From: Clostridium massiliamazoniense
GTDB taxonomy: Bacteria > Bacillota > Clostridia > Clostridiales > Clostridiaceae
Direction: 5' to 3'
Assembly: GCF_001403635.1 (NCBI RefSeq)
Contig: NZ_LN879468.1
Span: 930,001-994,000, forward strand
Length of the DNA: 64,000 nt
Shown: in pieces, positions 17,378 through 61,915 of the stretch
Layout: every line of letters begins with the position of its first letter
How positions within the stretch are numbered: position 1 is the first letter of the stretch
The notes under the pieces: model-generated
Database searches by the model: none
Told to the model about the DNA's origin: nothing
The model's input: the letters and a program-made list of their open reading frames with translations, nothing else
Made by a program: the position numbers and the translations under genes

Positions 17378-17507
17378 TACTTCTCCTCCAAGTATTATGA
17401 TTTATCTAATCACTAGTACCTGTAATACTCCAATATTGAAATAAACAGATATACCACCTTGTATAATTATATAATCTTCACTAAAATTCAAATAAAACTT
17501 TAGTTTA

Positions 17508-17547
17508 TTGCCTATCATTGACCTTAAATGTTATACTCTAATATATA
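17508..17547 (+). promoter_or_regulatory. Candidate rqcH promoter (two overlapping options)
   Basis: On the plus strand TTGCCT at 17508 with TATACT at 17532 (18-base spacer), or TTGACC at 17518 with TATATA at 17542 (18-base spacer), could each serve. Both lie 70-110 bp before the rqcH start in the divergent intergenic region. Confidence 0.35.
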
Positions 17548-19399: not shown

Positions 19400-19437
19400 A
19401 AAGAGGAAGTATCAAAAATACAAGATACATCCTCTTT
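19400..19437. terminator. Bidirectional terminator between rqcH and the methyltransferase gene
   Basis: AAAGAGGAAGTATC and GATACATCCTCTTT form a 14 bp stem with one mismatch, flanked by A- and T-runs. It serves the convergent genes ending at 19337 and 19442. The right arm matches the 3' hairpin of the repeat family at 39997-40430. Confidence 0.88.
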
Positions 19438-19441
19438 TTTA

Positions 19442-20557
19442 TTATTTACCAAAATATTGATAGTAGTAACATAATAATCTACCATTATAAAGTTTTCTAT
19501 TTTTATCAGCTTTTAATCTTATGAATTTTTCAAAGTTTGGGAATGCTGTTAATACATTAATGTACCATCCTGGCATATTTCCTTTAACTTCTGCTATATG
19601 TCTATTTAATTCTTCAACTTCTCTTTTTTCACCTATACGCTCTCCATAAGGTGGATTTGTTACTATATATCCTTCTTTTTTACTTGAAGAGAAATCTAGG
19701 AAGCTTCTTCTTTGAAGTTCTATACAATCTGATAATCCAGCTTTCATTATGTTATTTCTAGCTGTTTTTAAAACCCAACTATCAATATCATAACCTATAA
19801 GTTTAATATCCTTATTTTTTATTGCTGCTCTTGCACCTTCTCTAACTTGATCCCAAGTTTCTTTATCCATAGTTGGCCAAGTTTCACTTACAAAATGTCT
19901 ATTCAAACCTGGTGCAATATTTTTAGCAATCATAGCTCCTTCAATAAGGATCGTTCCTGAACCACAGAATGGGTCTATTAGTTGCTTTTCATAATCCCAT
20001 TTTGATAAATAAATCATAGCTGCTGCTAAAGTTTCCTTAAGTGGAGCTTGCCCTGAATGTTCTCTATATCCTCTTTTATGAAGCCCTTCTCCTGAAGTAT
20101 CTATAGTTAATGTAACTATATCCTTTAATATTGCTACTTCTATTTTATAAACAGGTCCATCCTCTGTAAAAATTTCTTTATTGTAAGTTCTTTGCATAGA
20201 CTTAACAACAGCTTTTTTTACTATAGATTGACAATCTGGAACACTAAATAATTTTGATTTAACAGACTTACCTATAACATGCATTTTTCCATCAACAGGT
20301 ATAATACTGCCCCAGTCTACTTCAACTGTTCCATTAAATAATTCTTCAAAGCTTTCTGCTTTAAATTCAGCTACCTTTATTAAAACTCTCTCTGCCGTTC
20401 TAAGCCATGTATTAGCTATGGCTATATCCATTTCATCCCCTTCAAATTCAACCTTACCATTTTCAACTTTAAGGTCTTCATATCCTAAGGCTTTAAGTTC
20501 CTTTGCTGTTATTGCCTCTATTCCAAAGGTAGTAGTAGCAATTAAGTTATAATCCAT
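19442..20557 (-). CDS. THUMP-domain class I SAM-dependent RNA methyltransferase (RlmL/YpsC-like)
   Basis: This 371-residue protein has an N-terminal ferredoxin-like/THUMP region (about residues 1-160) and a C-terminal Rossmann methyltransferase domain. LIDPFCGSGTILIEGAMIA near 195 is motif I, and VTNPPYGERIGE near 300 is the N-P-P-Y catalytic motif of base N-methyltransferases. The family modifies 23S rRNA (RlmL N-terminal half, G2445-type). Whether this protein has the same target is inferred. It is separated from pyrR by 18 bp. Confidence 0.87.
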   Translation of the reverse strand: MDYNLIATTTFGIEAITAKELKALGYEDLKVENGKVEFEGDEMDIAIANTWLRTAERVLIKVAEFKAESFEELFNGTVEVDWGSIIPVDGKMHVIGKSVKSKLFSVPDCQSIVKKAVVKSMQRTYNKEIFTEDGPVYKIEVAILKDIVTLTIDTSGEGLHKRGYREHSGQAPLKETLAAAMIYLSKWDYEKQLIDPFCGSGTILIEGAMIAKNIAPGLNRHFVSETWPTMDKETWDQVREGARAAIKNKDIKLIGYDIDSWVLKTARNNIMKAGLSDCIELQRRSFLDFSSSKKEGYIVTNPPYGERIGEKREVEELNRHIAEVKGNMPGWYINVLTAFPNFEKFIRLKADKNRKLYNGRLLCYYYQYFGK

Positions 20558-37507: not shown

Positions 37508-37604
37508 GGGAGTAGATAAGGTCTGGTGTCCTTACAGGTCTTCAAAACCTAGTTGTGGTACTAATACTATCATAGGTGGGTTCGATTCCCACATATTCCC
37601 GCCA
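37508..37604 (+). tRNA. selC: tRNA-Sec (anticodon TCA)
   Basis: This 97-base gene has an unusually long variable arm and an encoded CCA. The anticodon loop is CTTCAAA with anticodon TCA, reading UGA. The acceptor GGGAGTA pairs with TATTCCC (one G-T), extended by an eighth position as in Sec tRNAs, with discriminator G as in Escherichia coli. TAAGG/CCTTA forms the D stem, GTGGTA/TACTAT the variable stem, and GTGGG/CCCAC the T stem with loop TTCGATT. The length is close to the 95 bases of E. coli selC. It implies selenoprotein synthesis in this organism; selA, selB and selD are not in the window. Confidence 0.93.
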
Positions 37605-39113: not shown

Positions 39114-39944
39114 ATGATTAATTTTTTATCCTTAACTCTTAGCACCTTAATGTTATTTTCTCCACTTAAAGTATTTTCTAATTCTACTACTGATATAAAC
39201 CATGAGTTTAACTGGTATTATTTTGTTGATAAAGCAACTAATACAATTTATGTTCCTAAAGAAACTCCTTTTGTAGAAAACCATAATGTATTTTATGCTG
39301 GAGACCAAAATGAAAAAGTTCTTTATTTAACATTTGATGAAGGCTATGAAAACGGATATACAAAAGATATAATAAAAGTTTTAAACAAAAATAATGTTCC
39401 AGCTGCCTTTTTTGTTACTAAACACTACATGACTTCTAATCAAGATATAATAAAAGAAATGGTAGATGGTGGACATTTAGTTTGTAATCATACAGTAAGT
39501 CACAAATCTATGCCCGTTGTAGTTGAGAATCTTGAAAAATTTAAAAAAGAACTCACTGATGTTGAAGATTGTTATAAAGAAATAACAGGTCAAGAAATCC
39601 CTAAATATTTTAGGCCACCAATGGGTAAATATAGCCATAAATCAATTATAGAAACAGAGAAATTAGGTTATGCTACTGTATTTTGGAGCTTTGCTTATAA
39701 AGACTGGGTTGTTGATTCTCAACCATCTAGAGAAACTGCTCTAAAGAAAATAACATCAAAGGTCTATAATGGTGAAATACTTTTACTTCACGCTTGTTCT
39801 AAAACTAATGCTGAAGTACTTGAAGAAGTAATATTAAAACTTAAAGCTGAGGGCTATGAATTTAAAGATTTGAATTATCTTAAGGAATCTTTAAATAAAA
39901 AAACATTCCAAAATACCAATGGAAGATTATTAAAAACATCATAA
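39114..39944 (+). CDS. PdaA-type polysaccharide deacetylase
   Basis: This 276-residue secreted NodB-fold deacetylase has a hydrophobic N-terminus (LSLTLSTLMLFSPLKVFS) that looks like a signal peptide. Its catalytic motif is TFDEGYENGYT near residue 78, the metal-binding SHKSM within HTVSHKS lies near 128, RPPMGKYS near 167, and HAC near 228. The TFDEGYE variant is typical of the PdaA group, which makes muramic delta-lactam in spore cortex. The ATG at 39114 follows GAGGTG by six bases; a GTG at 39105 lies in that box. Repeat copy 1 follows its 3' end. Confidence 0.87.
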   Translation: MINFLSLTLSTLMLFSPLKVFSNSTTDINHEFNWYYFVDKATNTIYVPKETPFVENHNVFYAGDQNEKVLYLTFDEGYENGYTKDIIKVLNKNNVPAAFFVTKHYMTSNQDIIKEMVDGGHLVCNHTVSHKSMPVVVENLEKFKKELTDVEDCYKEITGQEIPKYFRPPMGKYSHKSIIETEKLGYATVFWSFAYKDWVVDSQPSRETALKKITSKVYNGEILLLHACSKTNAEVLEEVILKLKAEGYEFKDLNYLKESLNKKTFQNTNGRLLKTS

Positions 39945-39996
39945 AAGGGACCGTGTAAAATTTTCCTCTAAATATATATTATTATCTTTAAAAGAA

Positions 39997-40430
39997 GGAG
40001 CTGTATCAAAATTAGCACCTTAATTTATATTACTTTTATAAACCTAGACTTAATTCAGGTGGAGTTTTTACTCCATCTGAATGCTTAGTCACAGTTATCT
40101 AGAAGCGTGAGGTTATTTATCTCCTACTCATAGAAAATAGGAGTATTACAGCTTCTAGCTATCAGATAAATATATTTTTTTCATCTATCGAGATGGCTAT
40201 ATAGGTACAAAATGCTGTGACCATTGAACTAGTACTAGAAGCTCTTTATTTTTGAACAATAGTTGCCCAAAAAAACTTCCACTGTTTGAACAAAGTGAGT
40301 TTGGAAGTTTTAGCAACTGTTGTAGAAAAAATATTAGAGCTTCTTTACGTAGGTGAGTGGTCACAAATGGTGAACCTATATAGCTAGATAAAAGGCAGAG
40401 AGGATGTATCTGTAATTCGATACATCCTCT
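39997..40430 (+). repeat. Structured non-coding repeat, copy 1 (full length, 434 bp)
   Basis: This non-coding element is nearly identical along its length to 49239-49667. Left end GGAGCTGTATCAAAATTA is an imperfect inverted repeat of the right end (reverse complement GGATGTATCGAATTACAG). Internal helices include ATTCAGGTGGAGT/ACTCCATCTGAAT (40053-40082), GCTATATAGGT/ACCTATATAGC closing a domain (40196-40206 with 40374-40384), TGTGACCA/TGGTCACA, GAAGCTC/GAGCTTC, and AGTTGC with GCAACT around ACTTCCA/TGGAAGT. The 3' end is a strong terminator hairpin. It has no reading frame of note and lies in the 3' region of the deacetylase gene. Confidence 0.85.
40399..40430. terminator. 3' hairpin of repeat copy 1, shared terminator
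   Basis: AGAGGATGTATC and GATACATCCTCT form a perfect 12 bp stem with an eight-base loop, followed by TCTTTATT on the plus strand. It also lies immediately after the minus-strand fchA stop codon. Confidence 0.85.
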
Positions 40431-40436
40431 TCTTTA

Positions 40437-41069
40437 TTAGAATTGCTTATATCCATAGGCTAGTATTTCATCTTTTATGAATTTACTTTGCTTTTCTATT
40501 TCTCTTATTCTACTTTCAGTATTTAACTTTAGCTCTTCATTTTTTATAGAAGCTAAATTTATTTTCACATTTATTATTGATGCCTCAATAGCACTATCTA
40601 AAAGTATTGCTCCTATCATAGCATCTGTTACTAAATTTTTGTTCCCTTTTTCTGTAGCAAATTTAATATTTTCAAATATCTCTAAAGATTTTTCTGCAAG
40701 TTCTAAAGGCACTGCCATACAATTTTCCGTGCACATAGAAATTTTATTCTTTCTTGCTTCTATTTCTTCTTCAGTATTTTTAGGAAGCTTATAACATGCC
40801 ATTAATTCATTAAAAGCCTCTTCATCTCTCTTTCCATAAACTAGAGCATTATTAGTAAATTCCCTTATGTCCCCAATGCACTTTTCCATCTTTTCTTTAT
40901 CTTCCTCTGATAAATCTTCAAAAGCTTTTTTCCCTTTTGTTAAGCTATAAACCATTGATGTTAATCCTCCAGCTAAAGCTGCTACTAAAGATGCTACAGC
41001 TCCACCTCCCGGTGCTGGTAAATCAGATGATAAATCCTCTATAAATTTTTCTATTTTTAAATCCTTCAA
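40437..41069 (-). CDS. fchA: Methenyltetrahydrofolate cyclohydrolase (FchA / cyclodeaminase family)
   Basis: This 210-residue helical protein of the cyclodeaminase/cyclohydrolase family has the conserved N-terminal pattern DLPAPGGGAVASLVAALAGGL (residues about 16-36, shown in part). Members hydrolyse 5,10-methenyl-THF to 10-formyl-THF, or act as formimino-THF cyclodeaminase. No ftcD partner is nearby, so the cyclohydrolase role is more likely. It would complement the FolD at 2602-3426, which lacks cyclohydrolase residues. It is 26 bp downstream of a glycosyltransferase gene. Confidence 0.85.
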   Translation of the reverse strand: MKDLKIEKFIEDLSSDLPAPGGGAVASLVAALAGGLTSMVYSLTKGKKAFEDLSEEDKEKMEKCIGDIREFTNNALVYGKRDEEAFNELMACYKLPKNTEEEIEARKNKISMCTENCMAVPLELAEKSLEIFENIKFATEKGNKNLVTDAMIGAILLDSAIEASIINVKINLASIKNEELKLNTESRIREIEKQSKFIKDEILAYGYKQF

Positions 41070-41095
41070 ATATATATCCTCCCACTCTTATTAAT

Positions 41096-42349
41096 TTAAT
41101 TTTCTATTATCTTATGTAATTTTTTCATAAAGTTATTATAACTATATTTCTTATGTTCTTCGTAAATAGTTCCTCTATCTAGTTCCTTTATTATATTATA
41201 TAATTGTTTTTCTATATCTAAAATATTGTTTTTTACTATAAAACATTTTTCTATTCCACTACATATATGTCTAAGAGGATCATTTTCATCACCTAAAATC
41301 CCTAGAATAGGACTATTTCCACCTAGATAATCATAAATCTTTGCTGGTATTTGCTTAGAACCTTTATTCCCAAATATCAACAATATATCTGCACCTAAAA
41401 TTTTTTCTATAGCTTCCTTAAAGCTAATTCTAGGCATAAGCTTTATTATATCTATTGTATTTATATGTTCAATAATAGAAGTACTATCTATATTACCATA
41501 AAAATATACTCTAAGTCTTTTATATAAATCATAATCTTCTTCCTTTATCTTTTTTATACACTGCAAGAAAGGGGTAATATCTCTAAGTTTTGTAAATATC
41601 TCTCCAGTATAAACTATATTTATTTCTTTATTCCACTCTCTTTTTAAGTTAGCCCTTATTTCATCATAGATCTTATCATTATAACTACGTCTTAAAACTT
41701 CTATATTTTCTTCATCTATACCATACCTTCTTATAAAATCATTTTTATTTTCTTCTGTAACAAAAATATATTTATCTGCATTTTTTATTACTCTTTTCTC
41801 CATAGAACTTTCTATGCTCTTTCTAAAAGCCCCTATTTTTTCTCTCGAACTATCAAAAACCCAAGGATCACTAAAATAAGCTATCCACTTAATCTTATCT
41901 CTTTTTTTAATTTTTAATGCCACTAAATGGCTAGATGGAGGTTCATGCATAGAAAATATTACTTGAAAATTTTCTTTTCTTAAGTTTCTTATATAATACT
42001 CATAAGCTTTATTAATCCAAAAGCAGTAAGCATCTGGAATCATAATTTTATTTTTTATTCCTTTTATTATAGGTTTAAATTTATTTCTTTGTTCATTTCC
42101 TCTTTGGCTGCTCTTCTTTGGCACTGCTCTTTCAAAGATTTTTCCTGGAGATACTTTATGCATTTTTACCCTTTTATCTAACATAGAAACTATATTTTCA
42201 TCATAATAAACACTATTTTTTTTAAAATCTACAGTTAGAACATGAATCTCATGACCTAAATCACACAAAGCGTTTAAATAAGAAAGACTTTCTATAGCTG
42301 CTGAATTATTTATTATTGGTGAATAAGCTGCTATAACTAATATTTTCAT
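41096..42349 (-). CDS. Glycosyltransferase, GT4-like
   Basis: This 417-residue protein has a GT-B type layout. The N-terminus MKILVIAAYSPIINNSAAIESLSYLNAL is typical of glycogen-synthase-like sugar transferases, and the C-terminal domain contains NIVYTGEIFTKLRDITPF and a region with KIYDYLGGNSPILGILGDEND, the usual donor-binding part. The acceptor is unknown. It overlaps the upstream TagA-type gene by four bases, so both probably act in the same cell-surface glycan pathway. Confidence 0.8.
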   Translation of the reverse strand: MKILVIAAYSPIINNSAAIESLSYLNALCDLGHEIHVLTVDFKKNSVYYDENIVSMLDKRVKMHKVSPGKIFERAVPKKSSQRGNEQRNKFKPIIKGIKNKIMIPDAYCFWINKAYEYYIRNLRKENFQVIFSMHEPPSSHLVALKIKKRDKIKWIAYFSDPWVFDSSREKIGAFRKSIESSMEKRVIKNADKYIFVTEENKNDFIRRYGIDEENIEVLRRSYNDKIYDEIRANLKREWNKEINIVYTGEIFTKLRDITPFLQCIKKIKEEDYDLYKRLRVYFYGNIDSTSIIEHINTIDIIKLMPRISFKEAIEKILGADILLIFGNKGSKQIPAKIYDYLGGNSPILGILGDENDPLRHICSGIEKCFIVKNNILDIEKQLYNIIKELDRGTIYEEHKKYSYNNFMKKLHKIIEN

Positions 42350-43062
42350 TCTCTTCTCCTCTCTTTTAAAGCTAAAATTAAAAATAATGGTATTTCTTTA
42401 AGTCTCGATATTCGTCTTGGTTCTTTTATAGTTCTGTAAAGCCACTCTAAATTTAGTTTTATAAGAAGCCTTGGTGCTCTTTTAACCTTTTCAGAAAAAA
42501 CATCAAAACTTCCTCCTACTCCCATAAATATTTTACAATTAAGTTTTTCCTTATATCTATCTATAAATAACTCCTGCTTAGGATTTCCCATGGCTACAAA
42601 GAGGATATTAGCCCCTAAAGAATTTATATCATTTATAATTTCATCACAGTTTTCTACATTAAAATAACCATGATGAAAACCTACAATGTTAACTTCTCTG
42701 TATTTTTTTCTTAACTTATAAAAACAACTTTTAACTACATCTTCTTCTCCTCCTAAGAGATATATAGACAAATTATGTTCTGTAGACTTTCTTATTAAAT
42801 ATTCCATAAAATCTATACCAGCTATTTTTTCACCTACAGAATTTTTTAAAATCCTAGATGCCATTATAGTTCCTATACCATCTGCTATTATTATAGAATC
42901 TTTATCATTATAAATATCAAATAACTCCTTGTTTTTAAGCCCTCTATGTAATATTTCTGAATTCCCTGAAATAATATGTACCTTTTCCCTTTTCATTACC
43001 TCGTCATAAAGTTCATCTTTAGTTCCTGAAAAAATTTCATATCCTAATATTTTTTTAAACAT
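42346..43062 (-). CDS. WecG/TagA/CpsF-family glycosyltransferase
   Basis: This 238-residue GT26 protein has the family motifs ADGIGTIMASRIL near residue 73, GVD-type region KIAGIDFMEYLI near 93, and LFVAMGNPKQELFIDRYKEKL near 152. TagA-type enzymes add N-acetylmannosamine to undecaprenyl-linked GlcNAc in wall teichoic acid linkage synthesis, while others serve capsules. It lies directly upstream of a second glycosyltransferase. A 9 bp hairpin precedes its ribosome binding site. Confidence 0.87.
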   Translation of the reverse strand: MFKKILGYEIFSGTKDELYDEVMKREKVHIISGNSEILHRGLKNKELFDIYNDKDSIIIADGIGTIMASRILKNSVGEKIAGIDFMEYLIRKSTEHNLSIYLLGGEEDVVKSCFYKLRKKYREVNIVGFHHGYFNVENCDEIINDINSLGANILFVAMGNPKQELFIDRYKEKLNCKIFMGVGGSFDVFSEKVKRAPRLLIKLNLEWLYRTIKEPRRISRLKEIPLFLILALKERRRE

Positions 43063-43152
43063 TTCCTAATCCCCTTATTAAACCATTTAATAAGTAGGCA
43101 AAAAAAGCCTAGCAAACTATATTACTATAATTCACCAGACTTTCAATAAATA

Positions 43153-44253
43153 TTACATTTTTTCTAAATATTTTTTTATTTCAATTACAATTTCATCATC
43201 TTTATTTAAAGCTTCGGCTAATTTTAAATGTTTTTTAGCATTATCCAAATCTCCAATATTTATATAACTCATTATTAAGTTAGTACAAATCTCTACATCC
43301 TTAGTTGCTTCAAAGGCTTTTCTAAAGCATTTTATAGCATTATCAAAATCATTTAGAGAAGCATAGTTTATTCCAAGCTCATTAACAACCTCTACTATAT
43401 TATTATTAAGTTCTAAACTCTCATTTAAATAATAAATAGCCTTTTCAAAATTATCAATTCTTCTGTAGCAAGTTCCTATATAATACTTTAATATAGCATC
43501 CTCTGGAAACTTATCAGCTAATGGTAAAAGTTTTGCTAAAGCTTTATTTGGATCTTCTAATAAAGCATCCTTTCCTTCTTCATAAGCAAGTGCATCCCTT
43601 ATCTCATTATATAAACCTTCTATTTCACTGCTTCTTTCTCCACCATTTTTTAAATACTCATTTATTTCTATAAATGATTTATTTAATTCATTTTTATCTT
43701 TATATGCTAAACTACTATAAAGATATGGGAATGCTTCATTTCCCCACTTTTCCTTTGCTCTTTCTGCAAGTTCTAATTGAACATCATTATACTCACTATT
43801 AGATTCTCTTAAAGCTTCACATACATAAAGAGCTTTATCACAAACTTCTTTATCACCTTCGTATTCCCATAATCCTATTAAAAGTATTAATGCATCAGCT
43901 AAATTATTTTTCTTTACATTATCAGCTATAATACCTTTAACACAATATACTGAATCCTTTATAAGAGGTAAAATTTTAAAATAAGCTTTATTAAATCTTA
44001 AATTCTTATCTCCACCTATAGCATAAAACATTCCTTCTATAAAATATGTTATAGGTAACTTATCTAACTTATACCCTTTTTTAACATCTTCATTTAAATA
44101 TTTAGGGTTTATTGGTATGTATAATTCATTTATAGAAAGTTCTTTTGCACTTCCACCTAACCCTTCTATAAATTTTTCAGCATTTAATTCTACGAAAATT
44201 AACTTTCCTAATTTTTCTTTTGAAAATTCATTGAAATTCAATGTATAATTCAC
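43153..44253 (-). CDS. Tetratricopeptide-repeat protein of unknown role
   Basis: This 366-residue helical protein has no signal peptide. The C-terminal part (about residues 230-360) contains TPR units such as AILKYYIGTCYRRIDNFEKAIYY and INYASLNDFDNAIKCFRKAFE (in part), while the N-terminal half is less regular. TPR domains usually mediate protein interactions. It sits between pgcA and the glycosyltransferase pair, but no function follows from that. Confidence 0.75.
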   Translation of the reverse strand: MNYTLNFNEFSKEKLGKLIFVELNAEKFIEGLGGSAKELSINELYIPINPKYLNEDVKKGYKLDKLPITYFIEGMFYAIGGDKNLRFNKAYFKILPLIKDSVYCVKGIIADNVKKNNLADALILLIGLWEYEGDKEVCDKALYVCEALRESNSEYNDVQLELAERAKEKWGNEAFPYLYSSLAYKDKNELNKSFIEINEYLKNGGERSSEIEGLYNEIRDALAYEEGKDALLEDPNKALAKLLPLADKFPEDAILKYYIGTCYRRIDNFEKAIYYLNESLELNNNIVEVVNELGINYASLNDFDNAIKCFRKAFEATKDVEICTNLIMSYINIGDLDNAKKHLKLAEALNKDDEIVIEIKKYLEKM

Positions 44254-44269
44254 TCCTTATTTTAAAACT

Positions 44270-44300
44270 ATAGGTTGCCCTGCAATTAAGGACAACCTAT
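44270..44300 (-). terminator. Terminator-like hairpin after pgcA
   Basis: ATAGGTTG and CAACCTAT form a perfect 8 bp stem. It is followed on the minus strand by AGTTTTAAAAT, and separates pgcA from the TPR gene. Confidence 0.6.
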
Positions 44301-44306
44301 AAAGTA

Positions 44307-46034
44307 TTATTTTAATTTTTCATTTATTATTTCCATTACATTTTTCTCAAAGTCTACAATTTTATTGCTTGCATCCTCTAAGCTTGATCCCTTAACAGCA
44401 AGGTAAACCTTCATTTTAGGTTCTGTTCCTGAAGGTCTTACAACAAACCATGAATCATCCTCTAAAACATATTTTAACACATTTGATTTTGGAAGGTCTA
44501 GAGTTTTCTCTTCTTTAGTTAAGTTATTAACTTCTGTGCTTAACTTATAGTCTAAAGAAGTTTTTATTTTTACTCCATTAATAGCATCTAACTTTGTATT
44601 TCTTAAGTTATCTATACAGTTAGCTATTTTTTCTTGTCCCTCTTTACCATCCAATGCAATTGAAACTAAGCCTTCCTTAAAGAATCCATATTTATTATAA
44701 AGTTCTATAAGAGCATCATATAAAGTTTTTCCTTGTTCTTTATAGTAAAGTGTCATTTCTGAAATTAACATAGCAGCTACTACTGCATCTTTATCTCTAG
44801 CATGAGTTCCTGCAAGGCATCCATAACTTTCTTCAAATCCAAATAAATATTTATGTGAATTTGTTTCTTCAAATTTAGTCATTAACTCACCAATATACTT
44901 AAAGCCTGTTAATAAATCAAAAACTTCTACATTATAATCAGCAGCAATATTTTTAACTGCTTCTGTAGTAACTATTGTTTTTATTACAGCACCATTATTA
45001 GGTAAATTATTAGTTTCTTTTAATGATGATAATATATATTCAACAAGTAAAAGACCTGTTTGATTTCCATTTAATATTTGATATTGTCCATTATTATCCT
45101 TAACAACTACACCAATTCTATCACAATCTGGGTCAGTTCCAAAGATTATATCTGCATTTACTTCCTCAGATAATTTTAAAGCTAATTCAAATACCTTTGG
45201 ATCTTCTGGATTTGGATATGGAGCTGTTGGGAACTCACCATTAGGTAATTCTTGTTCTTTTACAACATGTACATTTTCATATCCTAATTCACTTAATACT
45301 CTTCTTACTGGAATATTTCCTGAACCATGAATTGGAGTATAAACTATATTTAAATCCTTAGCATAATTCTTAACTAAATCTTTTCTAATAGTTAAAGCCT
45401 TTAACTCTTCAGTAAATGCTTTATCTACTTCTTCTCCAATATAAACTAATAAACCTTTTTCTCTAGCTTCATCTTCAGAAATAGTTTTTATAGTTTCATA
45501 ATCTGCTATATCATTAACATAACCTATTACTCTTGCAGCTGGCTTGTCTGTTAATTGACAACCATTTTCGTCATATGCCTTATATCCGTTATATTGCTTT
45601 GGATTATGTGAAGCTGTTAATACAATTCCACCTTGGCATTTTAAATATCTTACTGCAAAAGATAACATTGGAGTTGGTCTTAAGCTTTCAAATAAATAAA
45701 CCTTTATTCCATTAGCTGCAAAAGTTAAAGCTGCTGCCTTTGCAAATTCATCTGATTTATTTCTTGAATCATAAGCTATTGCTACTGATTTCTCTCCAGT
45801 ATACTCGTCATTTAAAAAGTTTGCAAATCCTTGAGTCGCTTTTCCTACTGTATATATATTTAATCTATTAGTTCCTGCACCAATAATTCCTCTCAAACCA
45901 CCAGTACCAAATTCTAGATCCTTATAAAATCTATCTTCTAGTTCTTTTTCCTCACTAATAGCCTTTAACTCTTCTTTTATTTCATCTGATATTATGTTGG
46001 AATTTATCCATTGTTCATACTTTTCTTTATACAT
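44307..46034 (-). CDS. pgcA: Phospho-sugar mutase (alpha-phosphoglucomutase / phosphomannomutase)
   Basis: This 575-residue alpha-D-phosphohexomutase interconverts glucose 1- and 6-phosphate for cell-surface glycolipid and glycan precursors. The phosphoserine loop is LTASHNPKQYNGYKAY near residue 143, the metal loop GTDPDCDRIGV near 300, the sugar loop GFEESYGCL near 402, and the phosphate-binding loop RPSGTEPKMKVYL near 535. The ATG at 46034 follows GGGAGGAG, so a 21-residue upstream extension was rejected. Confidence 0.92.
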   Translation of the reverse strand: MYKEKYEQWINSNIISDEIKEELKAISEEKELEDRFYKDLEFGTGGLRGIIGAGTNRLNIYTVGKATQGFANFLNDEYTGEKSVAIAYDSRNKSDEFAKAAALTFAANGIKVYLFESLRPTPMLSFAVRYLKCQGGIVLTASHNPKQYNGYKAYDENGCQLTDKPAARVIGYVNDIADYETIKTISEDEAREKGLLVYIGEEVDKAFTEELKALTIRKDLVKNYAKDLNIVYTPIHGSGNIPVRRVLSELGYENVHVVKEQELPNGEFPTAPYPNPEDPKVFELALKLSEEVNADIIFGTDPDCDRIGVVVKDNNGQYQILNGNQTGLLLVEYILSSLKETNNLPNNGAVIKTIVTTEAVKNIAADYNVEVFDLLTGFKYIGELMTKFEETNSHKYLFGFEESYGCLAGTHARDKDAVVAAMLISEMTLYYKEQGKTLYDALIELYNKYGFFKEGLVSIALDGKEGQEKIANCIDNLRNTKLDAINGVKIKTSLDYKLSTEVNNLTKEEKTLDLPKSNVLKYVLEDDSWFVVRPSGTEPKMKVYLAVKGSSLEDASNKIVDFEKNVMEIINEKLK

Positions 46035-46149
46035 AGTTCTCTCCTCCCAATCTTTTATACAACTTATTATATTATAGAAACCATAAATATAATACACCTT
46101 TCTATAGCTTTTGTTAAAAATTATTATATTGTTTCATTAATTTTAACTT

Positions 46150-46290
46150 TTGTATAAATTGAAACTTAATTTACATAGAGCTTTGACTCCAGGTAAATTT
46201 TAATGGAAGTTATTTAAGATTCTCTATCTATTTATCTCTAAACTTATAGAACATTGGAATATTATAGCCACTAGTTATCCGATAAAATTT
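46150..46290 (+). repeat. Diverged half copy of the structured repeat (copy 4)
   Basis: From 46165 to about 46286 the sequence aligns to the 5' half of the repeat with the same overall length (122 bases) and roughly two thirds identity by eye. The first helix is conserved as pairing but not as sequence: ATTTAC (46169-46174) with GTAAAT (46193-46198), against ATTCAG/CTGAAT in copies 1 and 2, at the same 18-base spacing. The 3' half is missing. Confidence 0.6.
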
Positions 46291-46304
46291 ACTTAAAGAA
46301 AAAA

Positions 46305-46342
46305 ATAAAGATAGTAATGTATCAAACATACACTATCTTTAT
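46305..46342. terminator. Terminator after the L25/Ctc gene
   Basis: ATAAAGATAGT and ACTATCTTTAT form a perfect 11 bp stem with further pairing in the loop (ATGTAT with ATAC). It lies between rplY and pgcA, and occupies the place of the repeat family's 3' hairpin. Confidence 0.75.
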
Positions 46343-46386
46343 AGTATAAAGACTCAAAGATTCATTTGATAAATCCCTAGCTTTTA

Positions 46387-46959
46387 TTAAATTTCATTTG
46401 AACCTTTAGCTAATTTCTTTTCAAACTTTATGCTACCTAATAAAGTTTGAGCTTCATCAAGTACTGTTAATTCACTTGCAACTTCTAAGTTAGCTACCTT
46501 AATAACTTCTCTTCTTCTAGCCTTTGATACATCAACTTCTAATGACCTTGGTAAACTTTCAGCTGCTCCTCTTACTTTAACAGTATCCTTTTCTCTTTGA
46601 AGAACTGCTCCAGACTTTGCTAAATTTTCTCTTCCCACAAATTTAACTGGTATATTAGCAGTAACTTCTTTTTTATTATCTATATCTTCTAAATCCACAT
46701 GAATTACTCTTCTATTAATAGGATCTCTTTGGATTTCTTTTATTATTGCCTTATGATTTTCTCCCTCCATGGAAACATTAACTATAGCATTTCTACCTCC
46801 ATTTGAAATACAATCATTTAACTCTAATTCTCCTACTTCAAAATTAAAGCTTTTAATATTATTACCATAAAATACTCCAGGTACCTTGCCTTCTCTTCTT
46901 ATTTTCTTTGCTTCATGGTGACAAGCACCTTTTCTTTTTTGAATATCTAAATTTTTCAT
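46387..46959 (-). CDS. rplY: 50S ribosomal protein L25 / general stress protein Ctc
   Basis: This 190-residue two-domain L25/TL5 type protein has an N-terminal 5S-rRNA-binding domain (GKVPGVFYGNN near residue 26, IKEIQRDPINRRVIHVDLE in part near 72) and a C-terminal TL5 domain. Position near pth and spoVT is typical in Bacillus, but none of these neighbours is present here. It is monocistronic, ending at a hairpin. Confidence 0.88.
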   Translation of the reverse strand: MKNLDIQKRKGACHHEAKKIRREGKVPGVFYGNNIKSFNFEVGELELNDCISNGGRNAIVNVSMEGENHKAIIKEIQRDPINRRVIHVDLEDIDNKKEVTANIPVKFVGRENLAKSGAVLQREKDTVKVRGAAESLPRSLEVDVSKARRREVIKVANLEVASELTVLDEAQTLLGSIKFEKKLAKGSNEI

Positions 46960-47138
46960 GACTAATCCCTCCTACCCCCTATTCTTAACAAGAGATGAAA
47001 AAATTATTCATTTCTAACTTCAGAATTTTCAACAATTATAAATTTTCTATACAATTATATAAACTTAAACATAATTGTATAATATAAATAAATTTTTTAT
47101 ATGTAAATAGTAGATGATATTTTTTAAAAACAAAAAAA

Positions 47139-47166
47139 CAATAATACCAATCTAATGATATTATTG
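47139..47166. terminator. Bidirectional terminator after the HAD phosphatase gene
   Basis: CAATAATA and TATTATTG form an 8 bp stem with a 12-base loop. Runs of A before and T after allow termination on either strand. Confidence 0.7.
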
Positions 47167-47214
47167 CTTTTTTATACTTTTATATTCTAAAATTAACTAA
47201 ATAGCTTCCCCCTT

Positions 47215-47946
47215 TTAAATAACTTGTAAACTATCTACATTTAATTTATAAGTAACATCTTTTCTTTCAACAATAAGATTTATTTTTTCTTTTAATTCTT
47301 CATCCTCTGTAATTTTTCCTAAAAGTTCTCTTGTTGGGTTTATAGCATGAGGATTTCCTACATTTTTAAACATTGTAAAATCTCCTGATGTATCTCCATA
47401 AGCATAGCTATTTTCTAAATCTATGTTGTACTTTTCTTGAAGTTCTAATATAGCTTTTTGTTTACTTTCAGAATCCCACATTGGAATAACTTCTCCACTA
47501 TAAGTTCCATCTTCATTTAATTTATATATTGTTCCTCTATAATCATCCATTCCATATTTCTTAGCCATTTCTTTAACTAATTCTATAGGAGAACCTGATA
47601 TAGCTATAACTACATGACCTTGCTCTAAATGCCATTTTATTCTCTCTCTTGAGAATGTATAAACTCTATCACCTTTTTGTTCAATAACAGTTTTAGCAAT
47701 ATGATCTATATGATAATGGTTTAATCCCTTTATAGCTTCTATATAAATATCAACCATTTTTATTAGGTAATCGTCATAATCTCCTTGACGCTTGTCCCAT
47801 TTTTCAAAAGCTGGTCTTACTTCATTAATCCATTTATCATCACTTACTAAATCGTACTTTACAATTTTCTTAAAAACCTCAGTTATTAAACCTTCTCTGT
47901 ATATTGTTCCATCTATATCAAAAAATGCTGCTATCTTCTTTTCCAT
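47215..47946 (-). CDS. HAD-superfamily (subfamily IB) phosphatase
   Basis: This 243-residue protein has the HAD motif I FFDIDGTIYREGL near residue 8, motif II AISGSPIEL near 115, and motif III/IV GDTSGDFTMF near 183, with a helical cap between motifs I and II. The D-I-D-G-T form and cap position place it in the SerB-like group, which dephosphorylates small metabolites. The substrate cannot be told. It is monocistronic and divergent from the XRE regulator. Confidence 0.85.
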   Translation of the reverse strand: MEKKIAAFFDIDGTIYREGLITEVFKKIVKYDLVSDDKWINEVRPAFEKWDKRQGDYDDYLIKMVDIYIEAIKGLNHYHIDHIAKTVIEQKGDRVYTFSRERIKWHLEQGHVVIAISGSPIELVKEMAKKYGMDDYRGTIYKLNEDGTYSGEVIPMWDSESKQKAILELQEKYNIDLENSYAYGDTSGDFTMFKNVGNPHAINPTRELLGKITEDEELKEKINLIVERKDVTYKLNVDSLQVI

Positions 47947-48178
47947 AACTATTCCTCCTTTGTACTTTTCTCTTTTAAATTTACTCTATTATACAAGCTT
48001 TATGAAAATTCAGCAACAAGAAATTTTATTTTTACTTTTTTCGTTGATCTTAAGCAAACTTAACCCACAGTTAATTTATTTAATTTTAAATTAACAAAGG
48101 TTCAATTGTTCCTAAATAACTCGCTTGATAAAATAATAACATAACAACTTTTATTATCAAGGAAGGGAATATATTTCT

Positions 48179-49228
48179 ATGAAAATAAATGACATTATAA
48201 AAGAAAAACGAACTAAACAAGGATTAACTCAAGAACAAATTGCAAATTATCTAGGAGTATCAACACCAGCAGTGAATAAATGGGAAAAGGGAATTAGCTA
48301 TCCTGATATTACTCTTTTACCAGCCTTAGCAAGAATTTTAAGGATAAATTTAAATACTTTACTTTCTTTTAAAGAAGATTTATCCGAGCAAGAGATAGGT
48401 AACTTTGCAAATGAACTCTCTACAACAATTAGAACTAAAGGGTTTCACCTTGCTTTTGAAAAAGCCATGGATAAAATTCAAGAATACCCTACTTGTGATA
48501 AACTAATTTTTACTATTGCAGCAGTATTACAAGGAGGTATATACATGTTTGGTGTAGAAAATAAAGAATTTTACGAAGAACATATAGAAAAATTATATGA
48601 GAGGGTCTCCAATGGCAATGACATAGAAGTACGAAACCAAGCAATGCCTATGTTAATTAATAAATATTTAGAAAGAAAAAAATTTGAAAAGGCTCAAACT
48701 TGTATTGATAATTTTCCAAATGTTATTTATGATAAAAAACTATTGCAAGGAAACCTTTATATTCAATCTGGACAACTTCATAAAGCTGCTGAACTTTTTG
48801 AACAGAAATTATTATCTACTACAACTGAATTATTTACAATTTTAACATTTATGATAGACATTGCATTAAAAGAAAACCGTAATGGTGATGCCAAATACTT
48901 TGCTGAAGTTCTAGAAAAAACAACCCACTTATATGACCTATGGGAATACAATTCATATACTGGACATCTTCAATTTTATACCGCACAAAAAGATACTAAA
49001 AATTGTATCTCTACTTTAAAGAAAATGTTACCTGCCATGAAAGAAAAATGGGATATATCTACTTCTCCCTTATACAAACATATAAAAGCTAAAAATACTA
49101 AAGATGGATTTAACGAACAACTTCTCTCTGCCTTTATAGACTCACTAAAAAATGATAATAATGAATTAAGTTTTTTAAAAGAAGATAAAGAATTTTGGGA
49201 ATTATTAAAGGAATACAGTACTAAATAA
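48179..49228 (+). CDS. XRE-family transcriptional regulator with TPR-like C-terminal region
   Basis: This 349-residue protein has an N-terminal helix-turn-helix (KRTKQGLTQEQIANYLGVST, then PAVNKWEKGISYPDITLLP, residues about 9-48) and a long helical C-terminal part resembling TPR repeats. This is the layout of RRNPP-like or other peptide- or protein-responsive regulators, but no specific group is recognised. It stands alone, divergent from the HAD gene, and repeat copy 2 begins 11 bp after its stop codon. Confidence 0.85.
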   Translation: MKINDIIKEKRTKQGLTQEQIANYLGVSTPAVNKWEKGISYPDITLLPALARILRINLNTLLSFKEDLSEQEIGNFANELSTTIRTKGFHLAFEKAMDKIQEYPTCDKLIFTIAAVLQGGIYMFGVENKEFYEEHIEKLYERVSNGNDIEVRNQAMPMLINKYLERKKFEKAQTCIDNFPNVIYDKKLLQGNLYIQSGQLHKAAELFEQKLLSTTTELFTILTFMIDIALKENRNGDAKYFAEVLEKTTHLYDLWEYNSYTGHLQFYTAQKDTKNCISTLKKMLPAMKEKWDISTSPLYKHIKAKNTKDGFNEQLLSAFIDSLKNDNNELSFLKEDKEFWELLKEYSTK

Positions 49229-49238
49229 ACTATAAAAT

Positions 49239-49667
49239 AGCGCTGTATCAAATCAGCACCTTAATTTATATTACTTTTATAAACGTAGACTTAATTCAGG
49301 TGGAGTTTTGACTCCATCTGAATGATTAGTCGAAGTTATCTAGAAGCGTGAGGCTGTTTATCTCCTACTTATAGAAGATAGGAGTATTACAGCCTCTAGC
49401 TATCAGATAAATGTATTTTTTATCTGCCGAGATAGCTATATAGGTACAAAATGCTGTGACCATTGAACTAGTACTAGAAGCTCTTTATTTTTGAACAATA
49501 GTTTCGTAAAAAAATTTCCATTGTTTGAACAAAGTGAGTTTGGAAATTTTAGAAACTGTTGTAGAAAAAATATTAGAGCTTCTTTACGTAAGTGAGTGGT
49601 CACAAATGATGAACCTATATAGCTAGATAAAAGGCAGAAGATATATCTGTAATTTGATACATCATCA
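49239..49667 (+). repeat. Structured non-coding repeat, copy 2 (full length, 429 bp)
   Basis: It aligns end to end with copy 1 with scattered substitutions. Two base pairs in the long 3' domain change together: AGTTTC/GAAACT (49500-49505 with 49552-49557) against AGTTGC/GCAACT, and ATTTCCA/TGGAAAT (49514-49520 with 49541-49547) against ACTTCCA/TGGAAGT. The 3' hairpin (GAAGATATATC...GATACATCATC) is degraded. It follows the XRE regulator gene. Confidence 0.85.
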
Positions 49668-52029: not shown

Positions 52030-52065
52030 AAATTCTTCTCCTTTCCATTTTAAATTATAAAAGTG

Positions 52066-52099
52066 GAAGGGATATATCTCTATTTTGATACATCCCTTC
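52066..52099. terminator. Terminator between mutS2 and the DUF523 gene
   Basis: GAAGGGATATATC and GATACATCCCTTC form a 13 bp stem with one G-U/A-C position and an eight-base loop. Its length, stem and loop size closely match the 3' hairpin of the repeat family, so it may be a solo relic. Confidence 0.75.
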
Positions 52100-52135
52100 T
52101 CTTAATGTCTAATTCAATAGAACTCTAATTATTTT

Positions 52136-57298: not shown

Positions 57299-57416
57299 AG
57301 GAACTGTATCAAATCAGCACCTTATTTTATATTGCTTTTATAAATATATTTTTTTATCTGCCTATATAGCTAGATAAAATACAGAGAGGATGTATCTGTA
57401 ATTCGATACATCCTCC
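57299..57416 (+). repeat. Internally deleted copy of the structured repeat (copy 3, 118 bp)
   Basis: Both ends of the repeat are kept: AGGAACTGTATCAAATCAGC at the left and the 3' hairpin at the right. The interior is reduced to two short pieces joined at short shared sequences (ATAAA and TATATAG). All the large helices are removed precisely at their bases. It lies between zapA and the U32 gene. Confidence 0.8.
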
Positions 57417-57425
57417 CTTTTTTTA
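57387..57425. terminator. 3' hairpin of repeat copy 3, terminator after zapA
   Basis: GAGGATGTATC and GATACATCCTC form a perfect 11 bp stem with an eight-base loop, followed by T-runs on the plus strand and A-runs that give a hairpin after the minus-strand zapA gene. Confidence 0.8.
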
Positions 57426-61671: not shown

Positions 61672-61915
61672 TAAAAAAAACCCGTCCCCAAAAGGGACGG
61701 GATATATCCGCGGTACCACCCTAATTAACATTATAAATATAATGTTCACTTAAAGAAATAACGGTTACTAACCGCTAATTGCTAATATTATTTCACAATT
61801 AGAACTCAAGAGTGAAATTTCTACATGGATTCTTTAGAAAAACTTCCAGCCTAGATTTTTCCTCTCTTAAAAGAATTTTCCCATATATACTGTTCTCTTT
61901 CAACGTTTATTAATA
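61672..61915 (-). promoter_or_regulatory. T-box leader of pheS-pheT (phenylalanine)
   Basis: On the minus strand the T-box sequence AGGGTGGTACCGCGG (complement of about 61708-61722) is followed by a strong terminator, CCCGTCCC/GGGACGGG at 61681-61701, with T8. The upstream region holds a Stem I with an AGAGAGGAAAAATC-like element and a candidate specifier UUC (Phe) at 61814-61816 within AATTTCACTCTTGAG. Uncharged tRNA-Phe binding would favour the antiterminator and allow pheST transcription. The specifier position is by eye and matches the downstream genes. Confidence 0.92.

Follow-up and report, generated by a model that had tools for sequence, protein, structure and literature searches.

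The window, that is, the whole stretch of 64,000 nt from Clostridium massiliamazoniense analysed here, has a G+C content of 28% and carries two near-full-length copies of an element of about 430 nt, as had been claimed from the sequence. The copies are 92.0% identical over 439 columns (blastn within the window, with positions 39985-40440 as the query for copy 1). The claim that they contain no credible reading frame also stands: the longest ORF contained in either copy has at most 55 aa, and a frame of 91 aa overlaps copy 2 at its first 13 bases only. A short copy, a lone inner module and a weak trace, which close the list below, had been missed. The window also includes a selenocysteine tRNA (37508-37600, + strand) and a T-box leader (61690-61912, - strand), both over the Rfam thresholds, and a PdaA-like protein whose top identity, among the best 80 of 279 relatives, is 62% in Clostridium mediterraneense. 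The features of the element are as follows, in coordinates of the window; R1 is a covariance model of module A.

39997..40432, + strand: composite copy 1, an outer unit enclosing modules A and B (blastn, fold z -11.7)
40038..40165, + strand: module A of copy 1, ATAAAC...CTATCAG, with its target ATAAA at 40166-40170 (R1 125.5 bits, E 6.8e-26)
40197..40204 (left) and 40376-40383 (right), strand not applicable: 8-bp direct repeat CTATATAG flanking module B of copy 1
40205..40375, + strand: module B of copy 1, a long imperfect hairpin with imperfect inverted ends
40398..40431, + strand: terminator-like hairpin, the 3' end of the outer unit in copy 1
49239..49667, + strand: composite copy 2 (blastn match to copy 1)
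49279..49406, + strand: module A of copy 2, with its target ATAAA at 49407-49411 (R1 133.9 bits, E 8.3e-28)
49444..49614, + strand: module B of copy 2, with CTATATAG at 49436-49443 and 49615-49622
57299..57417, + strand: short copy, the outer unit alone, with ATAAA at 57340-57344 as the empty site for A and a single CTATATAG at 57362-57369 as that for B
46154..46287, + strand: lone degenerate module A and its ATAAA, near an L25/Ctc-like gene (R1 87.1 bits, E 3.5e-17)
17400..17508, - strand: weak, possibly decayed module A (R1 24.8 bits, E 0.0047)

The short copy retains the first ~40 and the last ~55 bases of the element and neither of its inner domains; it also lacks the 8 nt adjoining its single repeat. 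Since it has the same two ends and no inner domains, the long element is nested. The element of ~430 nt consists of an outer unit of about 120 nt in which module A of 128 nt and module B of 171 nt are nested. Other genomes have A and B apart from each other, and the composite has itself been duplicated, to at least two sites. The original prediction of a single 430-nt RNA family therefore gives way to three nested units. The boundaries of module A were set by the short copy and by empty sites in other genomes, and those of module B by the short copy. The terminator noted at the end of the element is present in copy 1, as a hairpin on both strands; the weaker one of copy 2 was not listed by the same scan.

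The predicted RNA fold of 39997-40432 reaches -158 kcal/mol, with z-scores of -11.7 on the + strand and -10.1 on the - strand, and none of 100 shuffles equals it on either strand. The 11-bp stem said to close the 3' domain, GCTATATAGGT with ACCTATATAGC, is present (40196-40206 pairs with 40374-40384), partly because CTATATAG is its own reverse complement. Both coordinated changes between the copies were found as claimed: 40265 G/40314 C becomes 49504 T/49553 A, and 40276 C/40307 G becomes 49515 T/49546 A. In the 3' domain as a whole, two pairs are changed on both sides and kept, two are changed on one side and kept, and one is broken; the remaining differences are three unpaired positions. Compensatory change has thus preserved the folds, and the MITE-like character proposed for the element holds. 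The element likewise matches no named RNA class in Rfam: no family passes its threshold there, a permissive scan of 39900-40500 gave weak matches only (E 1.7 and above), and the Rfam gathering cut-offs returned no match in 20 further loci with A or B copies. Readings as a group I intron or IStron, an omega-RNA or a bridge RNA were weighed through the Rfam scans, which gave no match over a family threshold.

A DNA search with the whole element matched 62 of 206 genomes of the family at E 1e-4; among the matches listed, most span module A alone (query about 52-180) and some module B alone (about 226-356). The covariance model R1 has 132 positions and was built from 31 aligned copies, of which the window supplied three. 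At E 1e-4 it matched 34 of 391 genomes of Clostridia and 36 of 398 of Bacilli, in searches with stricter filters and with some matches near the limit. In eight genomes searched more deeply, with up to 150 candidates scored, R1 found 150, 149, 141, 118, 89, 34, 9 and 1 copies at E 1e-3, the highest counts being lower bounds. Among 12 genomes examined, Clostridium beijerinckii HUN142 has 47 copies, C. saudiense 18, C. pascui 11, Clostridium sp. BSD9I1 9 and C. ihumii 1, and seven more have none. The module stands alone in many genomes and head-to-tail in some, where one ATAAA is common to both copies, and identity between the copies of three close genomes reaches 96%. With about 150 copies in some genomes, two bacterial classes and no Rfam match in the copies scanned, module A makes up a sizeable family.

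Modules A and B of copy 1 had no match among plasmids and phages. Single A copies from three other loci (L225, L226 and L185; L and G handles denote our loci and genomes) had no plasmid match, nor L185 a phage match, and the copy L246 matched four plasmid records. A segment of a Klebsiella grimontii plasmid (CP079755.1:221560-221631) is 79% identical over 76 query bases to an A copy from Bacilli, which may reflect transfer, chance or contamination.

Module A has a hairpin as its left arm; its right arm is long, a stack of helices interrupted by internal loops, and is closed by TTATCC/GGATAA. Its pairing is conserved. In 97 distinct rows, both-side changes occur in 27 of the 32 pairs, with a covariation score of 0.390, in an alignment fitted to the model, which favours the 27/32; none of 500 shuffles reaches the pair count or the score, and pairings slid out of register give 9-19 pairs and scores of 0.043-0.071. 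An independent MAFFT alignment of 31 rows shows both-side changes in 18 of the 32 pairs, and its further pair types are reached by 11 of 500 shuffles. The covariation of module A is strong.

Such covariation, together with the conserved internal loops and the fold z-scores, would suit a functional structured RNA, cis-regulatory or small, that is multi-copy by chance. It is also reported, in the part of the source available, that 40-51% of the bcr1-bcr18 copies of two B. cereus strains lie within mRNAs (PMC3446304). However, selection on an RNA of the + strand would give more G-T than A-C cells in the stems, and module A has 136 G-T against 142 A-C (146 rows, with some copies in twice), compared with 39 against 0 in a control of 20 tRNAs from the loci collected. 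The lack of a G-T excess favours constraint on DNA over constraint on RNA; decay of dead copies also evens the counts, so that the test counts against selection on most copies of A and not against it on each. The gene context is inconsistent as well. Frames lie on either side of 140 copies; 53 of these are tandem on the same strand, 48 tandem on the opposite strand, 25 divergent and 14 convergent; the orientation of A agrees with the majority gene strand in 65 cases and disagrees in 53, and 13 of 146 copies overlap a frame of at least 80 aa by more than 40 nt. Insertion polymorphism between close genomes and two copies within a fragmented comM-like gene also speak against an RNA function, and we regard it as very unlikely for the family, while a minority of A copies may be under RNA selection. 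The even G-T and A-C counts, the mixed orientation and gene context, and the fixed short insertion target favour a DNA-level explanation of the covariation of A, most likely a folded DNA substrate of transposition.

The insertion sites are polymorphic between genomes. Ten usable pairs of filled and empty sites were compared, two of them supplied by L176 from more distant genomes (72-79% identity); L185:1405 and L151, which aligned poorly, and the head-to-tail rows L102/L214 were left out of the ten. At all ten, the empty junction is ATAAA or a one-letter variant (ATAAC, ATAAG, ATAAT or ACAAA). Filled alleles have an ATAAA-like motif on the right, and on the left the module starts with ATAAAC, ATAAAG or ATCAAG. 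In L368 the right motif is ACAAA when filled and ATAAG when empty. The copies of the ATCAAG type (L089, L185:1067 and L252) are the informative ones: ATCAA is absent from all their empty sites, including the two empty genomes of L252, between which a few bases differ. The left motif is thus the element's own, and the target is unduplicated. At the other seven sites a duplication of 4-5 bp is indistinguishable from an element-borne ATAA(A); in three of the seven the empty motif (ATAAC, ATAAG, ACAAA) is unlike the left motif, which leans to no duplication. Module A therefore inserts immediately 5' of an ATAAA-like target, with no target duplication at three sites. Read on the opposite strand, it follows TTTAT on the 3' side, and its own last bases are TTTAT or TTGAT. 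Its ends are not inverted repeats: in 44 copies, a mean of 2.6 of 12 end positions match, compared with 2.8 in shuffled controls.

The short motif common to both ends and the head-to-tail arrays are consistent with insertion by site-specific recombination at ATAAA/TTTAT, an idea of the kind printed for the bcr elements. On the other hand, the end of the element is not always like the target (ATCAAG against ATAAA), the targets vary and the sites are dispersed. The differing end and the variable targets leave no strict common crossover core, and we consider recombination of this kind unlikely.

The terminal features of A recall the IS200/IS605 family. According to the portions of the sources available, these elements have hairpins at both ends, with neither inverted repeats nor target duplication, and enter the DNA on the 3' side of a tetra- or pentanucleotide (PMC7290912), which is read by a guide 5' of the hairpin (PMC7290912, PMC6006769). 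Module A resembles the ends-only elements of the family (PATEs) in having no terminal inverted repeats, a hairpin at each end, a fixed target of 4-5 nt and no duplication at the three decidable sites. Guide-like pairing is also found at its left end and is matched by none of 1000 shuffles, with kinship between copies uncorrected. Module A could accordingly be a true PATE, or a REP-like unit, moved by a Y1 transposase in the canonical manner. The direction of travel stands against this. On the strand that places the guides 5' of the hairpins, it is the left motif of L089, L185:1067 and L252 that travels, with the right ATAAA as the target, whereas canonically the left target stays and the right motif travels. 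The right arm is also much longer than in PATEs. As the guide rule and the travel rule do not hold together on one strand, we term module A IS200/IS605-ends-only-like and not a member of the family.

Y1_Tnp (PF01797) matched in 30 of 38 genomes examined (8/12 and 22/26), which would provide enzymes for a PATE, but its presence does not track the copy number of A, and genome G134, with 141 copies, has no match to it. The loci read contain no transposase gene between A-type ends and no linked tnpA, and the Y1 loci read include no tnpA-bearing relative of A. Module A lies within the 1.5-kb flanks of 2 of 50 Y1 loci, and at 3 of 14 wider Y1 loci (15 Y1 genes, one of the longer type), a chosen set of which two were picked as already known to have A. 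IS200/IS605 elements are often strand-biased; the 52 listed of the 141 copies in G134 show no bias between replication halves (13/12 vs 17/10, Fisher p 0.58), assuming an origin at base 1. Taking both sides together, a canonical PATE or REP-like unit is possible, though less likely than not.

RAYT-like Y1 genes are present in several of these genomes, and A shares with REP/RAYT systems the form of high-copy intergenic palindromes. REPs are given as 21-65 nt long, with a tetranucleotide guide that is GT[AG]G if canonical, in the available part of PMC6006769; module A differs in its length of about 130 nt, its two arms and its ATAAA target, and has no GT[AG]G guide or short single hairpin. A comM-like (Mg_chelatase) gene is immediately preceded by a RAYT-like Y1 gene at L340:2010-4123 and L335:1799-4042, and in L335 it is followed by a dprA-like gene (DNA_processg_A), which places an HUH nuclease in a transformation-type gene group. 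The comM-like gene of L335 (genome G013) is in pieces, with two copies of module A inside. With A near so few Y1 loci, and here inside the neighbouring gene, the link between A and RAYT is weak.

Among repeats known by description, bcr1-3 appear to be the nearest printed likeness of A. The sections available describe bcr1 as a short non-coding interspersed repeat of 11 to 130 copies per genome, with TTTAT tied to its mobility (PMC6542083), and the bcr elements as having a conserved stem-loop structure (PMC2267715). Module A resembles bcr1 (BCR group A) in its high copy number, its structure and its ATAAA, the reverse complement of TTTAT, and is possibly related to it. The first bcr1 paper, by its title, reportedly makes bcr1 specific to the B. 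cereus group, whereas A is present in Clostridia and Bacilli. Clop-1 of C. perfringens and Clot-1 of C. tetani are intergenic stem-loop repeats of 93 and 74 bp in the accessible part of PMC2267715; they are clostridial like A and differ in length, in a comparison by description only. In Clostridium, neither module was found described in the literature searched, including the available parts of PMC3733652, PMC6429828 and PMC8632094; as the first bcr1 paper and the 2011 bcr1-18 paper lay outside its reach, this absence is unproven.

For module B, both-side changes were found in 32 of 71 pairs of 14 sequences, a count reached by none of 500 shuffles, and the further pair types were not above shuffles (222/500). 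Its stems hold 50 G-T against 25 A-C cells, and this excess means that an RNA role is less clearly excluded for B than for A. The 8-bp repeat on both sides and the inverted ends, imperfect by eye, are seen in one nest only; no cross-genome empty site was found for B or for the outer unit. A search of viral and genome contigs for exact matches to a module-B core gave nothing.

As the best explanation of the whole, we propose, with a probability of about 0.7, a nest of three elements in which A is a hairpin DNA element moved as a single strand and B is a MITE. Both modules would have inserted into the outer unit, with its terminator-like end, and two or more sites would then have received copies of the composite. 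Module A would be non-autonomous and hairpin-ended and would move as a folded single strand. A trans-acting enzyme, presumably of the HUH type, would recognise both of its hairpins; its guide-like stretches would pair with the fixed target, TTTAT on one strand and ATAAA on the other, and it would insert beside this target without duplicating it. Module B would be an ordinary MITE with an 8-bp target duplication, and the outer unit may likewise be mobile. A more specific form of this proposal, which we find rather doubtful, is that A represents a mirror image of hairpin-guided single-strand transposition, IS200/IS605-like in its geometry on the folding strand, with the left motif carried, the right motif as target and a trans-acting enzyme. 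It would operate in Clostridia as well as Bacilli and might also underlie the bcr repeats.

Module A combines textbook RNA-like covariation with the behaviour of mobile DNA, which is a caution for the discovery of non-coding RNAs by covariation. The comparison of G-T and A-C cells in stems is a simple test that separates constraint on RNA from constraint on DNA, and the mapped junctions of A make the mobility of TTTAT-linked repeats directly testable.

Some copies of A depart from the common form. Those of L193, L196, L200, L202, L127 and L134 have an insert of ~50 nt in the right apical loop, closely alike between copies, which is perhaps a further nested motif. In L116, L117, L125, L126, L128, L129 and L133 the left hairpin is found on its own, with the right arm undetected. 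In the window, the terminator-like hairpins at 19402-19444 and 52064-52100 have the GTATC/GATAC upper stem common to the ends of the outer unit, and lower stems that are unlike those of the outer unit yet still complementary; the outer unit may insert into terminators or arise from them.
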